From NCBI GenBank assembly GCA_014218215.1, contig CP043652.1, forward strand, positions 744,001 to 808,000: a stretch of 64,000 bases of DNA, given 5' to 3'. This DNA is from Geodermatophilaceae bacterium NBWT11 (GTDB lineage Bacteria > Actinomycetota > Actinomycetes > Mycobacteriales > Geodermatophilaceae). The notes under the pieces are model-generated. The model saw only the letters and a list, made by a program, of their open reading frames with translations, was not told the DNA's origin and did no database searches. Shown one piece after another: positions 24,740-33,868 of this stretch (the stretch's first letter is position 1; each line of letters starts with the position of its first letter). The position numbers and the translations under genes are program-made.

Positions 24740-28205
<3,466 letters not shown>

Positions 28206-28269: not shown

Positions 28270-28302
28270 AAAAAACCCCTCGTGCCAGGAGGCACGGAGG
28301 GG
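28270..28302 (-). terminator. ilvB leader intrinsic terminator (attenuator)
   Basis: On the minus strand, CCCCTCCGTGCC pairs with GGCACGAGGGG (one bulged C) around a TCCT loop, followed at once by six T. Such a U tract is rare in this genome region. It lies between the leader peptide and ilvB, 65 bases before ilvB, so it can stop transcription before the operon. Confidence 0.88.
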
Positions 28303-28304
28303 TG

Positions 28305-28332
28305 AGCGCGTCGGTCGGTGGACCGACGCGCT
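28305..28332 (-). promoter_or_regulatory. Leader hairpin preceding the ilvB attenuator
   Basis: A perfect 12-base-pair stem (AGCGCGTCGGTC with its complement) and four-base loop. The leader peptide stop codon sits at its base, the usual location of a ribosome-responsive pause hairpin. It ends two bases before the terminator stem. No clear alternative antiterminator pairing was found by eye. Confidence 0.7.
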
Positions 28333-28366
28333 AGTCGATGACTACGAGGAGCCGGGAGCGCAGCAC
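28331..28366 (-). CDS. ilvB operon leader peptide
   Basis: An 11-codon open frame, [11 protein letters not shown], starting at a GTG and ending in TAG. Five consecutive Leu-Leu-Val-Val-Ile codons sit just before the stop, and the frame is followed by a hairpin and a U-tract terminator. Ribosome stalling on scarce branched-chain aminoacyl-tRNA would be the sensor. An in-frame GTG at 28372 would add two residues ([13 protein letters not shown]). With the promoter proposed at 28373-28402, transcription would begin about at the GTG, implying leaderless translation. This is seen in the sequence; function is by analogy with known actinobacterial ilvB leaders. Confidence 0.82.
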
Positions 28367-28372
28367 GCCCAC

Positions 28373-28402
28373 ACTGTGCGCCCTGGCACGTGTCGCCGTC
28401 AA
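28373..28402 (-). promoter_or_regulatory. Probable ilvB promoter
   Basis: On the minus strand TTGACG, 18 bases, then CACAGT; the transcription start would fall about seven bases later, at or near the leader-peptide GTG. The -35 is near consensus and the -10 weak. Confidence 0.55.
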
Positions 28403-28416
28403 CCACGTCGTCCCAT

Positions 28417-31134
28417 TCAGTGGAACGACGGCGACCGTTCCGTGGGACGCAGGACCTCGGGGTCGAAGCCGTCCACCACCGCGGCGAGATCGGCGGCCCG
28501 GGTCGGGCGGGCGAGCAGGAACCCCTGCACGAACCGGCAGCCCAGCTCCTGCAGCGCGGCCAGCTCCCCCGGCGTCTCCACGCCCTCGGCGACGACGTCG
28601 ATCTGCAGCTGCCGCCCGAGGGCGATGACGCTGCCCACGACGGCCGCGCCGCGGGCGTCGTGCTCGATGCCGGCGAGGAACTCCCGGTCCATCTTGAGCA
28701 CGTCCACCGGCAGCCGGGCCAGGTAGGCGAAGGAGGAGTAGCCCCGCCCGAAGTCGTCCAGGGACACCACGCAGCCCATGTCGTGCAGGGTCTGCAGGTC
28801 GCTGTCGAGCCGGTCCTGCTCGCTCATCAGCACCGACTCGGTCACCTCGATCATCAGCCGGTGCGGGGGCAGCCCGGAGGCGGCCAGCGCCTGGGCGACG
28901 TCGGCCACCAGACAGCCCGCCTGCAGGTGCCGCACGCTGATGTTCACGCCCAGCTTGAGGTCGCGCCCCCCGGCCCGGAGCGCGGCCAGCTCGCCGCAGG
29001 CCCGGTCGAGCACCCAGCGCTGCAGCGGCACGATCAGCCCGTCGTCCTCGGCCAGCGGCACGAACTCGTCGGGCCCGACCTCCCCCAGCACGGGATGGTC
29101 CCAGCGGACGAGCGCCTCCACGCCGAGCACCCGGCGCTCGAGCACCCCGACCACGGGCTGGTAGTCCACCCGCAGCTGGCCCGCGGCCAGGGCCTGCGGG
29201 AGGTCCCGGGCGAGCCGGGTGCGCCGGGTGGTGGCGGCGTCCGCGGCGTCGCCGTGGCTGCGGACGCAGCTCTTGCCGGCGGCCTTGGCCGCCCGCAGCG
29301 CCAGGTCGGCCTGACGCAGGGTGGTCGCGACGTCGTCCTCGGCACGCAGCTCGGTGACCCCGATGCTGGCCGACAGCGCGAACACCGGACCGTCCGGTGA
29401 CCCGTCGGGCGCCGAGGCACGGTGCTCGCGGTCCAGCCCGGCGACGACCCGCTCGGCCAGCGCGGCCGCCTCGGTCAGCCCCGACCGGACCAGGACGGCG
29501 AACTCGTCCCCACCGAGGCGGGCCACCAGGTCGGGCTCGCGGACCAGCCCGCGCAGCTCGTCGGCCACCTCGGCCAGCAGCCGGTCCCCCGCCTCGTGCC
29601 CGGCGACGTCGTTGACGGACTTGAAGCCGTCGAGGTCCAGCAGCAGCACGCTGGCCGGGCCGCCCTCCTGCGCGCGGGCCCGGGCCACACCGAGGGCGGC
29701 CATCAGCCGGGCCCGGTTGGGCAGCCCGGTCAGGAAGTCGGTGAACGCCATCCGCTGCAGCTCGCGTTCGGCGGCCCGGCGGTCGGTGACGTCGCGCAGG
29801 TGCAGCACCCGGCCCTCGACACCCGCCGCGCCGTCGGTGCCCCCACCGAGGGCCTCGACCTCACGCCAGGCGCCGGCCCGGGTGCGCACCCGGAAGGCGT
29901 GCGGGCCGGGCTCCCCGGCCACCGCGGCCGACAGCGCGGCGGCGTCCTCGGGGTGCACGAGGTCCGCGAACGCCCGGTCGGCGAGCTCTCGGGGCCCGTA
30001 GCCCAGCCGGCCCTGCACGGAGTCCGACACCCAGGCCAGCCGGGTGCCGCGGTGCAGGACCACGGTCACGTCGTCGGCGTCGAGCACGAGCGAGCGGAAC
30101 CAGGCCTCGGCCCGGGCCAGCCGACGGGTCAGCCGCTCACCGTCGGCCACCCACAGCACGCTCCGGGCCGCGGTCAGCAGCAGCAACACCAGCGCTCCGA
30201 CGCCCTCGACGAGACCCACCGGGCTCCCGGCGGCCACCCCGGCGACGAGCAGCACCCCCACGGCCGACGCCGAGCACCAGCTCAGCAGCACCCCGGACAG
30301 CGGTTGGGTGCCCGCCTCCGCACGGGGCGGCGGGACACCGGGCCCGGGGTCGGCAGCCGCGCCGAGCACCACCGCGACGAGCACGACGGCCCAGGCCACG
30401 ACGGTGAGCAGGTCGAGGGTGGCCGAGTCCAGCGCGGCCGCGACCGCGCCGTTGACCGCGACCACGGCCGTGGCCAGCCACTGCACGGTCACCCAGGACC
30501 CGGTGGCCCGCCGCCCGGCGGGCAGCACCGCCGCGGTGAGCAACCCGATCGCGGCCAGCAGCGCCCCGACCGCAGGGAGAGCGGCGGCCACCAGGGGGTC
30601 CCCGGCCGTGCCGGAGCTGTCGAGTGCCCCGCCGACCACGACGGCGGCCACCACGGAGACGGCGACCAGCACGATCCCGGCGTCCAGCCAGGAGCGCGAG
30701 CCCACCCGGCTCCACCAGCGGCCGGGTCCCTCGCCACCCAGCAGCGCCACGCTGCCGGCCAGCACGAAGGGGACGGCGAGGACCAGGGGCAGGTCCTGCG
30801 GACCGCTGCGGCCCGGGTTGAGTCCCACGCCCAGCACGCCGGCGACCGCCTGGCCCGCCCCGACCAGCAGCAGCGCGACCCCGAGCAACCGCCAGGGCCG
30901 CCCGGCGCGCCCGGGCCGGGCGATCCGGCGCAGCAGGGCCGCGCCGGTGCCGGCCGAGACGACGGCGAGTCCGGCGGGCAGCACCCGGTCGGCGAGACCG
31001 GGGACGACCAGGCTGGACACGACGGCGACCACCAGGACGGTGCTCAGCGCGCCCAGCAGCGGCCCGACCCGGGGGCCGGCCGGGGCCGTGGGGTCGGGGG
31101 TGGTCGGTGCCGGCAGCGCGGTGCGCGACGCCAT
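28417..31134 (-). CDS. Membrane PAS-GGDEF-EAL protein with both catalytic motifs intact
   Basis: 905 residues. About eight to ten hydrophobic helices span residues 25-330; a PAS domain follows ([20 protein letters not shown], about 345-455). The GGDEF domain has [10 protein letters not shown] (about 541-545) and the EAL domain starts at [11 protein letters not shown] (Glu about 673), with [27 protein letters not shown] and VAEGVET. Both sites look competent, so it may make and degrade c-di-GMP in response to a membrane-associated signal. It lies four bases behind a paralogue with a degenerate GGDEF. It separates ilvBNC from ilvD. Confidence 0.93.
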
Positions 31135-31138
31135 CGAC

Positions 31139-33802
31139 TCAGACCCGCCCGACCAGTCCCGGCCACAGCTGGCCGGCGTCGGCCTCCAGCATCCCGACGA
31201 AGGGGGGCAGCGAGAGCGGGCGGGACAGCAGGAAGCCCTGGGCGAAGCCGCAGCCCATCGACCGCAGCACGGCGAGCTGGCTGGGGGTCTCGACGCCCTC
31301 GGCGACGACGTCGATGCCCAGCCGGGCGCCGATGCCGATCACCGACTCGCACAGCGCCCGGGTCTGGGTGTCCTTGTCCAACCGGGCCAGGAACGTGCGG
31401 TCGAGCTTGATGATGTCCACCGGGAGCCGGGTCAGGTGGGCCAGCGAGGAGTAGCCGGACCCGAAGTCGTCCAGGGCCAGGTGCACGCCCATCAGCCGCA
31501 GCGCGGCGAAGTCGGTCTCCACGTGCATGCCGTCGGCCAGCACGGTGGACTCGGTGATCTCGATGACCAGCCGCTCCGCGGGCAGCCCGCTGGCCTGCAG
31601 GGCCCGCGAGACGTCCCCGACGAGGGTGCCGCTGGCCACGTGCACGGCGGAGACGTTGATCCCCAGCTTGAGCGGGGTGTCCCCGGGCTGGGGCAGGGCG
31701 ACCGCGGCGGTGGTGGCCTCGGCGAGCACCCAGCGCTGCAGGTCCCCGATGAGGCCCGAGCGCTCGGCGATCGGGATGAACTCCTCGGGCTCGAGCTCGC
31801 CGTAGGAGGGGTGCCGCCAGCGGGCGAGCGCCTCCACGCCGGTCACCCGCTGGGTGGCCAGGTCGACGATGGGCTGCCAGGCCAGCGCGAACTCACCGCG
31901 GGCCCGGGCGCCGACGAGGTCCTCGCGCAGCCGCTCCCGGCGGTCGCGGGCCGCGCCCATGGCCGGGTCGTACCGGCGCACCGACCCCGGCCCGGCGGTC
32001 CGGGCGGCGACGACGGCCAGCTCGGCCCGGTCGATGACCCCGGCAGGGGTGTCCCCGGCGGCCAGGGGGACGAGCCCGACGGCCGCGGAGAGGTCGACCA
32101 GGCCCAGCTCGGTGGTGACCGGCTGCTCCACGACCGACAGGCAGCGGGCCGCCACCAGGTCGGGCTCGCCGTCCACCCCGTGGGCCAGGACGGCGAAGAG
32201 CTCGGGCCCCACGCGGGCGACCTGGTCGTCACCGCGGACGGTGGCGCGCAACCGGCGGCCGACCTCGACCAGGGACACGTCGACCACGTCGCGGCCCACG
32301 TTCTCCCTGGCCTCGGCCAGCCCCTCCACCTCGAACAGCAGCAGGGCCACCCCGGGGGTGTCCCCCACCTCGCGGAGCTCCTCGGTCAGGGCCCGGACGT
32401 GGGCGGCACGGTTGGGCAGGCCCGTGACCGGGTCGCTGAAGGCCAGCGACCGCAGCTCGTCCTCGGTGTCCAACCGGGCCGTGATGTCGCGGCACTGCAG
32501 GACCAGGGCCGCGACGTCGGCGTCGGCCCGCAGGTCGGTGATGCCGACCTCCAGCACACGCCAGGTCCCGTCGGCGCCGGGCAACCGGAAGCTGCGCAGG
32601 CCGGTGAGCCGGCCGACCGGCACCGCCGGGTCGGTGAGCCAGGCGCGGACGGCGTCGACGTCCTGCGGGTGCACCCGGTCCAGGACCGGGGCGCCGGTGA
32701 GCGGCAGGCCCGACCGCTCGGCCGGCCCGGCCAGCGCGGGCGCCGCCCAGGTGACGGTCAGGTCGGCGTCGAGCACCAGGACGGCGTCGCTGCTGGAGCG
32801 CACGAGGGAGCGGAACCAGGCCTCGCTGCGCTGCAGGCGAGCGCCGACCCGGACCTCGTCGCGGGCCGAGACGCCTCGGTGCACGGCGGTGAGCACGAGC
32901 CCGAGGGCCACGGCGACCAGGGCGGCGCCGGTCGGGGGGTGGCCGAGCAGGGCGGAGCCCAGCAGCAGGACCGCGGCCACGACGACGACCACGTGCGGCA
33001 GCAGGTGCCCGGCCATGGTCAGCCGGTCGGTGAGCCGGTGCTGGTCCCCGGGCGCGGCGTCGTCGTCGCCGTCCCCGTCGTCCCGACCGGGATCGGCCGC
33101 CGAGGCGGCCAGGAGGAGCGTCGCACCCACCAGCAGCAGCGCGCGGGCCGCCAGCGCGGTGCCGGTGAAGGGGGCCTCGGAGCCCAGCGCGCCGAGGGCG
33201 TCGCCGACGGTGAGCGTGACCAGGGCGGCCAGCACCAGGGCACCGGTGACCCGGCGGGTGGCGTCGGCGGCGGTGGCGAGGGTGAGTCCGGCGCCCAGGA
33301 GGACCGTGGCGGCCAGGCAACTGGCCTCCAGGGCGACCCGGGAGGTGGTGTCCAGGTCGGCGGCCAGCGGGCTGACCACCAGCACCTGGCCCAGCACGAA
33401 GGCAGCCGTGCAGAACAGGGCGATCTCGGTGAGCAGCCGGGCACCGCCGGCCCGCAGCCGGCCGCGGCCCAGCAGCACCAGCACGCCGAACGCACCGAGC
33501 AGGTGGGCGGGGACCGAGGCCGCGGTGCGCCAGGCGTCCACCTGGCCGGTGCCGCCGGAGACCAGTTCGGCCAGCCCCGCGGTGGCGAGACCGACGAGCA
33601 GGGCGACGCCGAGGGTGCGCCACCCGCGGGCCGCGCCGACCCCGCCGCGGCGCAGCAGGAGCAGACCGGTCAGCGCCGTGACCGCGGCCACGAGGGCAGC
33701 AGCAGCGAACCGGCGGTCCTCGGCCGGGAGGGCGAGGACGCCGGCGAGCAGCACCAGGGACGCCAGTCCCAGCGGTGCCGCTCCTCGACGCAGATGATCC
33801 AC
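31139..33802 (-). CDS. Membrane PAS-GGDEF-EAL protein with degenerate GGDEF; predicted c-di-GMP phosphodiesterase
   Basis: About 887 residues and the same layout as its downstream neighbour: many N-terminal helices, a PAS domain (AWFRSLVRSSSDAVLVLDADL), GGDEF, then EAL. The cyclase signature is replaced by VGPELF (about 532-536), so synthesis is unlikely. The EAL domain keeps GVEALARWRHP (Glu about 657), ALDDFGSGYSSL and VAEGVET, so hydrolysis is likely. The GTG at 33802 was chosen because the alternative GTG at 33859 lies right after the ilvD terminator, leaving no promoter room; the alternative adds 19 residues. A 10-base inverted repeat abuts the chosen start. Co-transcribed with the intact paralogue. 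Confidence 0.88.
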   Translation of the reverse strand: MDHLRRGAAPLGLASLVLLAGVLALPAEDRRFAAAALVAAVTALTGLLLLRRGGVGAARGWRTLGVALLVGLATAGLAELVSGGTGQVDAWRTAASVPAHLLGAFGVLVLLGRGRLRAGGARLLTEIALFCTAAFVLGQVLVVSPLAADLDTTSRVALEASCLAATVLLGAGLTLATAADATRRVTGALVLAALVTLTVGDALGALGSEAPFTGTALAARALLLVGATLLLAASAADPGRDDGDGDDDAAPGDQHRLTDRLTMAGHLLPHVVVVVAAVLLLGSALLGHPPTGAALVAVALGLVLTAVHRGVSARDEVRVGARLQRSEAWFRSLVRSSSDAVLVLDADLTVTWAAPALAGPAERSGLPLTGAPVLDRVHPQDVDAVRAWLTDPAVPVGRLTGLRSFRLPGADGTWRVLEVGITDLRADADVAALVLQCRDITARLDTEDELRSLAFSDPVTGLPNRAAHVRALTEELREVGDTPGVALLLFEVEGLAEARENVGRDVVDVSLVEVGRRLRATVRGDDQVARVGPELFAVLAHGVDGEPDLVAARCLSVVEQPVTTELGLVDLSAAVGLVPLAAGDTPAGVIDRAELAVVAARTAGPGSVRRYDPAMGAARDRRERLREDLVGARARGEFALAWQPIVDLATQRVTGVEALARWRHPSYGELEPEEFIPIAERSGLIGDLQRWVLAEATTAAVALPQPGDTPLKLGINVSAVHVASGTLVGDVSRALQASGLPAERLVIEITESTVLADGMHVETDFAALRLMGVHLALDDFGSGYSSLAHLTRLPVDIIKLDRTFLARLDKDTQTRALCESVIGIGARLGIDVVAEGVETPSQLAVLRSMGCGFAQGFLLSRPLSLPPFVGMLEADAGQLWPGLVGRV

Positions 33803-33833
33803 ACGCTCAGTGTCGGCAGCTCTACTGAGCGTG
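33802..33833. promoter_or_regulatory. Inverted repeat at the start of the c-di-GMP gene pair
   Basis: CACGCTCAGT and ACTGAGCGTG, ten bases each and exactly complementary, separated by 12 bases. It lies immediately before the chosen start. It could be an operator or a 5' hairpin controlling translation; if the upstream GTG is the real start, it is coding. Confidence 0.45.
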
Positions 33834-33868
33834 AACAGGCGAGGCTCGCCGGGAGTCACCCGTTCGGG

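Follow-up and report, generated by a model that had tools for sequence, protein, structure and literature searches.

Leader-peptide attenuators ahead of genes for branched-chain amino acid (BCAA) synthesis have been described in several actinobacterial genera, and the element analyzed here is in purpose of this known kind and in structure a variant of it. The ilvBHC genes of Streptomyces lividans are reported to be preceded by the ilvL leader (MRTRILVLGKRVG; PMC8079986), which has a BCAA leader peptide, hairpins, a U-rich terminator before ilvB, and a leaderless start assigned from RNA-seq. Published descriptions of the Corynebacterium glutamicum ilvB leader and the ilvB-II motif place the leader start at about the transcription start (within one nucleotide of it in C. 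glutamicum; PMC11857589) and include Leu and Val sensor codons, GUA among them, and a hairpin adjoining the terminator (PMC11857589, PMC10272879). In C. glutamicum, terminator function is supported by mutation (PMC11857589, PMC10272879) and a boundary trinucleotide common to antiterminator and terminator has been proposed (PMC11857589). A leaderless start site has been published for the ilvB leader of C. diphtheriae (PMC5784534); in both Streptomyces and Corynebacterium, then, leaderless ilvB leaders are already known. For Mycobacterium tuberculosis, the ilvB1 attenuator is described as having LVVI codons with GUA, a terminator with a U-tract, and two mutually exclusive structures (PMC13236596).

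We analyzed a window of 64,000 nucleotides from Geodermatophilaceae bacterium NBWT11 (contig CP043652.1, positions 744,001 to 808,000); coordinates below are positions in this window. An earlier note, made from the letters alone, had described an ilvBNC attenuator here with no strand given; it lies on the minus strand, in the order promoter, 11-codon leader ORF, a hairpin at the stop codon (P1), an intrinsic terminator (T) and ilvBNC. The leader ORF (28331-28366) reads GTG CTG CGC TCC CGG CTC CTC GTA GTC ATC GAC TAG from 28366 to 28331, so that five branched-chain codons in a row (Leu-Leu-Val-Val-Ile, with the GUA valine codon at 28343-28345) are followed by Asp and the stop. P1 (28305-28332) has 12 perfect pairs and a 4-nt CACC loop and begins within the stop codon, its first base being the A of TAG. 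The terminator (28270-28303 in all) comprises T at 28303-28275 and a U6 tract at 28275-28270; a terminator scan of the window, with 0.1 sites expected, returned two overlapping sites, both of them T. The genes that follow on the same strand are ilvB (26325-28205, ATG at 28205; acetolactate synthase large subunit, 626 aa), which scores 1113.9 bits against NCBIfam NF005860 (cut-off 881) and 769.9 against TIGR00118 (cut-off 538.35), and two genes named by reading the sequence, ilvN (25801-26325; acetolactate synthase small subunit, 174 aa) and ilvC (24740-25765; ketol-acid reductoisomerase, 341 aa). The letter-by-letter check found every part that the note had listed, the leader, its Leu-Leu-Val-Val-Ile codons, the 12-bp stop hairpin and the U6 terminator, and so confirmed the observation of these elements before ilvBNC. 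The RNA folding it had proposed as a check, run on 28375-28206, gave -84.5 kcal/mol (z -5.2), a value equaled by 0 of 200 shuffles. A long-range stem around P1 and T in this fold was rejected, as it lies partly upstream of the putative transcript start.

The window locus differs from each of its described relatives. A Streptomyces sp. locus (L044) whose peptide is that of S. lividans ilvL has the core ATT CTC GTA CTT, which aligns with the window sensor run. By comparison with the published ilvL, the window has its TAG directly before P1, and the stretch read as RVG in Streptomyces is unread RNA; the window P1 has 12 bp and a loop of 4 nt where Streptomyces has a long stem. The antiterminators published for C. 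glutamicum and ilvB-II share terminator bases or pair from the P1 loop, and neither pairing was found in the window. In contrast to the two mutually exclusive structures described for M. tuberculosis ilvB1, P1 and T in the window do not compete for bases.

To survey the element, 190 ilvB loci were assembled from four sources (30, 70, 30 and 60, the last 60 hand-picked for spread). A rule for a hairpin plus U-tract found terminators at 175 of them; the other 15, some not actinobacterial and some, such as L020 and L070, with an interrupted U-tract, had none by this rule, and a further 7 had no leader by rule. Terminator and leader with a run of Ile, Leu or Val codons occurred together at 168 of the 190 loci, 153 of which are distinct (25 + 52 + 22 + 54 from the four sources; L079, L096 and L098 lie outside the class). 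A search of 36 Geodermatophilaceae genomes gave 35 with an ilvB match, and leader, P1 and terminator stem were present at all 28 loci fetched, these being the best-scoring 28 of the 35. Two Geodermatophilaceae loci (L020 and L070) keep the terminator stem with interrupted U-tracts (TTATTCG and TCTTTCG), and termination may be weak there. In one family of the order, two leaders (L029 and L103) have an arginine inside the run (MSSNRSLRVLT, by eye) and keep GUA-CUU and the hairpin before the terminator. The 168 loci, the covariation of P1 described below, and the published work on S. lividans, Corynebacterium and Mycobacterium support the view of the element as a leader-peptide attenuator for BCAA synthesis genes, and we are highly confident in that assignment.

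The leaders fall into a short and a longer form. In the short-leader variant, the stop is a TAG that follows the last sensor codon within 9 nt and lies at the base of P1; this form comprises all 38 close relatives of the window locus (37 from Geodermatophilaceae, plus L132 of a different family in the same order) and 24 other loci. The stop codon is TAG in 62 of 62 short leaders, while the longer leaders use TGA (62), TAG (25) or TAA (4). In the Streptomyces leader ILVLGKRVG the RVG codons align by eye with the 5' arm of the window P1, so this arm was apparently translated once and is now unread RNA.

Several comparisons bear on P1 as a helix. Of the P1 cells in the 38 close relatives, 91% are paired; the sequence varies little there, and just two pairs change on both sides. 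The part of these rows that was inspected shows P1 as a simple hairpin, its loop 3-6 nt long. A class-wide alignment (A2) of 56 loci, the window locus and 55 others, was more informative. It holds 50 of 61 eligible loci (L076, L079, L081, L082, L083, L120, L129, L130, L180, L185 and L186 were dropped) plus 6 close relatives. RNAalifold recovered the lower stem of P1 from A2; 71 cells changed on both sides compared with 29 in shuffles, and the covariation score was 0.247 compared with at most 0.089 when the partners were slid. By these comparative measures P1 is a real helix, and its covariation includes the window locus as a row. A covariance model built from A2 (R1) has matches in 125 of 148 class genomes, many of these 125 having already supplied rows for training. 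Its match to the window site (8.2e-14) is by construction, since the window sequence (L001) is itself a training row, and no other site in the window has E below 0.48.

The promoter consists of a -35 element TTGACG (28397-28402, minus strand), an 18-nt spacer and a -10 element CACAGT (28373-28378), with 6 nt between the latter and the GTG at 28366. A strict sigma-70 scan of the window found no promoter at this site because CACAGT matches TATAAT at just 3 of 6 positions, and the support for the promoter is therefore comparative. The pattern TTGACG-N17/18-CACAGT-N6-GTG is kept in 27 of the 28 fetched Geodermatophilaceae loci, the exception (L027) having an altered -10 element, and 139 of the 153 distinct loci match TTGACA at 5 or more of 6 positions. 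Among the 145 of these loci with well-scoring promoters, 142 have an in-frame start codon 6-8 nt after the end of the -10 element. When every ATG and GTG was counted without choosing, 133 were in frame at 6-7 nt and 0 out of frame. This spacing makes it most likely that, across the class, transcription starts at the first codon of the leader and yields leaderless transcripts. The earlier placement of the transcription start at the leader GTG thus gains support from the 142 of 145 spacings and from the published starts in relatives, and for the window genome the start is predicted at the G of the GTG (28366). A second in-frame GTG lies at 28372, immediately after the -10 box, and the leader frame may be longer by two codons.

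The placement of P1 relative to the ribosome and to the terminator follows a rule. The interval from the last sensor codon to T ranges from 23 to 72 nt among the 153 loci. Despite this range, P1 begins 3-5 nt past the last sensor codon in 118 of the 153, and the gap from P1 to T is 0-1 nt in 138. A P1 start within 8 nt together with a gap of at most 3 nt was found in 143 of 153 loci compared with 34% of shuffled intervals, the shuffles keeping base composition only. P1 adjoining the terminator is the rule across the class. Measured from the last GUA, P1 starts after 9-11 nt in 126 of 150 loci (13 nt in the window), a distance within 3 nt of the edge of a ribosome whose A site is occupied by GUA. 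Once P1 is folded, the edge of that ribosome lies a median of -1 nt from T. A ribosome that has reached the stop codon breaks at least half of the P1 pairs in 153 of 153 loci and all of them in 131, and leaves a median of 18 nt before T. All 38 close relatives have 29-32 nt between stop codon and T, and the median over all loci is 30 nt; repression is reported for E. coli terminators that follow a stop codon closely, with full efficiency reached beyond about 27-30 nt (PMC4824070).

A base-pairing antiterminator was sought by folding with ribosome footprints, which were assumed to be E. coli-like, with the edge placed 12 nt downstream of the first nucleotide in the A-site codon. The measure was how many nucleotides of the T 5' arm are already tied up before the T 3' arm has been transcribed. 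At edge +3, where the A site holds the third-last sensor codon, at most 2 nt were tied up in 143 of 153 loci and 3 or more in 10. One codon earlier, with the edge at the end of the last sensor codon (edge +0), the counts were 115 and 38. Among the 35 of the 38 close relatives that were counted, at most 2 nt were tied up in 34 at edge +0 and in 35 at edge +3. In the window, with codons 6-9 in the A site, at most 1 nt of the T 5' arm was tied up. By the same measure the E. coli thr, trp, ilv and phe controls had 4-9 nt tied up when the ribosome was on the sensor run and 0 when it was at the stop, and his had 9 nt in both states; leuL was unusable, its terminator having been misassigned, and the textbook switch was thus seen in 4 of 6 controls. 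Complementarity between the P1 loop and T was about that of shuffled loops; pairings of at least 5 bp were possible in none of the 38 close relatives and in 8 of the remaining 115 loci. The 4-nt loop of the window P1 gave no pairing with the T 3' arm of the ilvB-II type, and footprint folding of the window gave no antiterminator of the trp type. The earlier note had failed to find a classic competing antiterminator; the footprint folding bears this out for the window and for most of the class.

Three other pairings were examined and rejected. The leader codons CTCCTCGT (28351-28344) can form 8 bp with ACGAGGGG of the T 3' arm, and the 5' end GUGC- pairs partly with GGCAC (by eye); both were rejected as antiterminators because both stretches lie under the stalled ribosome and the pairing gives the wrong sense. 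An extension of P1 into T, GGG with CCC by eye, occurs in mycobacteria; it is absent in Geodermatophilaceae and is not general.

In the E. coli pyrBI attenuator, a nearby ribosome prevents the terminator from folding without any competing hairpin. The geometry of the window locus would fit a proximity mechanism of this kind, and folding found no competitor. There is a difference, in that the pyrBI ribosome itself translates up to the terminator, whereas here P1 would bring a stalled ribosome alongside it. Our best explanation of the locus, in which we place about even confidence, is a ribosome-mediated ilvBNC attenuator in which P1 is a strap by which the stalled ribosome is brought up against T; an action of P1 that involves no base-pair competition we judge as likely as not. 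Transcription would start at the leader GTG, and a ribosome would load on the 5' end and read the 11 codons. If charged Leu-, Val- or Ile-tRNA were short, it would stall on CTC CTC GTA GTC ATC. P1 would then fold right ahead of it, and since the two ends of P1 meet, the ribosome edge, P1 and the base of T would become neighbors. T must close inside the RNA polymerase exit channel and needs some free upstream RNA to do so; P1 and the docked ribosome would deny it that RNA, and the polymerase would read through into ilvBNC. With ample amino acids the ribosome would reach TAG, its front half would cover the P1 5' arm, and P1 would not form. About 18 nt of free RNA would then separate ribosome and T, allowing T to close and transcription to end. 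Of these steps we infer for the window locus the transcription start, the stalling and, above all, the steric step. The anatomy and its conservation, the covariation of P1, the geometry and the lack of a base-pairing competitor in folding, on which they build, are shown above.

Published experiments fall on both sides of the strap model. In M. tuberculosis, replacing LVVI by alanine is reported to give low, non-inducible expression (PMC13236596), which by analogy agrees in sense with the model, and RNA probing in C. ulcerans is described as showing P1 and the terminator folded side by side (PMC10272879). Two results conflict with it: changes to candidate regulatory codons of S. coelicolor ilvB are said to have been without effect, as cited in PMC1262725, and one Val-to-Glu change in the C. 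ulcerans leader is reported to have left regulation unchanged (PMC10272879). The steric step is not visible in folding. The equilibrium folds contain T equally whether the ribosome is stalled or has reached the stop, with T falling below 0.5 in 2 and 3 of 153 loci, respectively. With the ribosome on the window leader anywhere from codon 10, where the sensor run ends, to the stop, the P1 3' arm is set free and captures 4 nt of the T 5' arm before T is complete; at the stop this modeled pairing would delay rather than favor T, and it counts against the strap reading. Literature searches on the steric idea and on Geodermatophilaceae attenuators found nothing among the titles and abstracts returned.

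The main rival to the strap is a short boundary exchange between P1 and T, as in the "fast" attenuator of C. glutamicum. Together with pairing of the P1 loop to the T 3' arm (ilvB-II, Narunsky et al.), it would make the element a classic attenuator whose antiterminator folding has missed, a reading to which we give a real but clearly minor share of probability. Published base-pairing models for Corynebacterium (PMC11857589, PMC10272879) and M. tuberculosis (PMC13236596) speak for it, P1 abuts T as an exchange would need, and the 38 of 153 loci with 3 or more nucleotides tied up at edge +0 suggest that boundary exchange may work in some genera. Against it stand the 1 nt or less tied up in the window and the 2 nt or less in 143 of 153 loci at edge +3, by a measure that registers the switch in four E. 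coli attenuators, and loop complementarity no greater than in shuffles. The suggestion in the earlier note that the switching mechanism may differ was upheld to the extent that, by folding, most of the 153 loci have no base-pairing competitor.

Classic attenuators have a pause hairpin ahead of the terminator. P1 resembles one in its position, and in the window a U-G step (28294-28293, by eye) follows it by 11-12 nt. P1 might accordingly serve mainly to hold the polymerase for the ribosome, with the on-state arising from ribosome-polymerase coupling and not from P1 blocking T. We consider this improbable, for a pause hairpin alone would leave unexplained both the P1-T spacing of 0-1 nt over intervals of 23-72 nt and how starvation would spare T.

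The value of the element lies in the class-wide spacing rule, which was exposed by studying the window locus and which makes the question of mechanism directly testable. If the strap model is true, it would provide another way for a ribosome to control a terminator and would explain the failed searches for antiterminators in actinobacterial leaders. The design would be a simple one: stall codons, a hairpin that covers the length from ribosome to terminator, and a terminator.

The sensor run has a conserved element of its own. GUA occurs in the BCAA run of 150 of the 153 distinct ilvB leaders. In 37 long window ORFs chosen by GC3, GTA accounts for 4 of 1685 valine codons, CTT for 3 of 1610 leucine codons and ATT for 3 of 441 isoleucine codons; the window genome has one tRNA-Val each with anticodons GAC, UAC and CAC among 45 tRNA sites. 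We considered whether the sensor run is conserved as RNA pairing, and prefer codon reading because GUA is nearly universal in the ilvB leaders and absent from the cimA leaders described below (0 of 43), and because CUC is not universal. Selective-charging theory, as published, holds that an isoacceptor with low codon usage stays charged (PMC1183508), so the use of GUA as a sensitive sensor is unexplained unless the single-gene tRNA-Val(UAC) is drained by GUG. Conservation of CUU and GUA among relatives of C. glutamicum was noted earlier (PMC11857589); a discussion of the rarity of GUA was not found in the portions of the literature on these leaders that were consulted.

The covariance model also pointed to sister leaders. 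More than one R1 site was present in 31 of 148 genomes, and of 27 second sites fetched, 26 lie before cimA (citramalate synthase). The L244 protein matches TIGR00977 at 650 bits (cut-off 450), and the other cimA genes were assigned by similarity to it. A set of 56 cimA loci (L240-L246, L248-L266 and L267-L296) comprised the 26 found by the model and 30 found by protein similarity. A script found a leader with P1 and T at 43 of the 56 (26 of 26 model-found loci and 17 of 30 others), a count that includes four in which the frame was judged wrong (L244, L272, L279 and L286) and two with a very weak P1 (L287 and L296). The scaffold of P1 and terminator is the same, with P1 0-2 nt from T in 41 of 43, and the sensor codons are AUU or AUC in place of GUA: at least two Ile codons stand in the run of 37 of 43 leaders. 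Footprint folding of 33 of these 37 (L261, L264, L287 and L296 were left out) found no T base tied up in 30 at edge +3 and at most 2 nt in 26 at edge +0. By a loose rule the distance from -10 element to start codon is 6-8 nt in 25 of 33. To judge from comparison of sequences, an Ile-codon sister attenuator precedes cimA in many actinobacteria. No paper on a cimA leader was found in literature searches judged from titles and the beginnings of abstracts. With the cimA leaders, the family comes to include isoleucine-specific control, and these leaders amount to a natural codon swap.

Only weak cimA homologues are present in the window genome, and a full match occurs in seven further genomes of the genus that are near-complete; where cimA and ilvB are on one contig in genomes of the genus, they are about 10-12 kb apart. 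The one second site not before cimA (L247, genome G175) is a Leu-codon leader (MRSQILLLRQPR) with a similar terminator, upstream of a gene that reads by eye as leuS. Leaders of leuS in Streptomyces are known from published work (PMC1262725).

Taken across these genes, the BCAA attenuators of the class Actinomycetes could constitute one RNA family that works without a base-pairing antiterminator, P1 being a strap that spans from a ribosome stalled at GUA (ilvB) or at AUU or AUC (cimA) to T. The sensor codons would then be exchangeable cassettes: ilvB would carry Leu and Val codons, the rarest valine codon among them, cimA would carry Ile codons, and leuS perhaps Leu codons. We advance this generalization tentatively, giving it slightly less than an even chance.

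The dependence of the sensor codons on the gene that follows bears on a further alternative, that the RNA is a riboswitch binding a ligand such as ppGpp and not a leader-peptide device. Riboswitches for ppGpp are reported to control some ilvB genes elsewhere (PMC10272879). Here, however, the sensor codons are conserved and differ according to the pathway encoded downstream, P1 in the inspected rows of the close relatives is a simple hairpin whose loop measures 3-6 nt, and ppGpp is reported to have left the probing pattern of the C. ulcerans RNA unchanged (PMC10272879). A search of the window with the families of Rfam 15 gave nothing at the gathering score except two tRNAs, the best sub-threshold matches at the attenuator being unrelated sRNAs, and at 20 related loci no family reached its cut-off. 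A riboswitch is accordingly very unlikely.

That T is the ordinary terminator of the upstream gene and the leader a chance ORF is more improbable still and already contradicted by conservation: a same-strand EAL-GGDEF gene does end at 28417, 50 nt before the leader GTG, but a conserved promoter lies between it and the leader, and leader and terminator together precede ilvB at 168 of 190 loci. This gene is one of two adjacent large GGDEF/EAL genes on the minus strand (28417-33859; the first identified by NCBIfam, the second by eye), which sit between ilvB and a gene that reads as ilvD.
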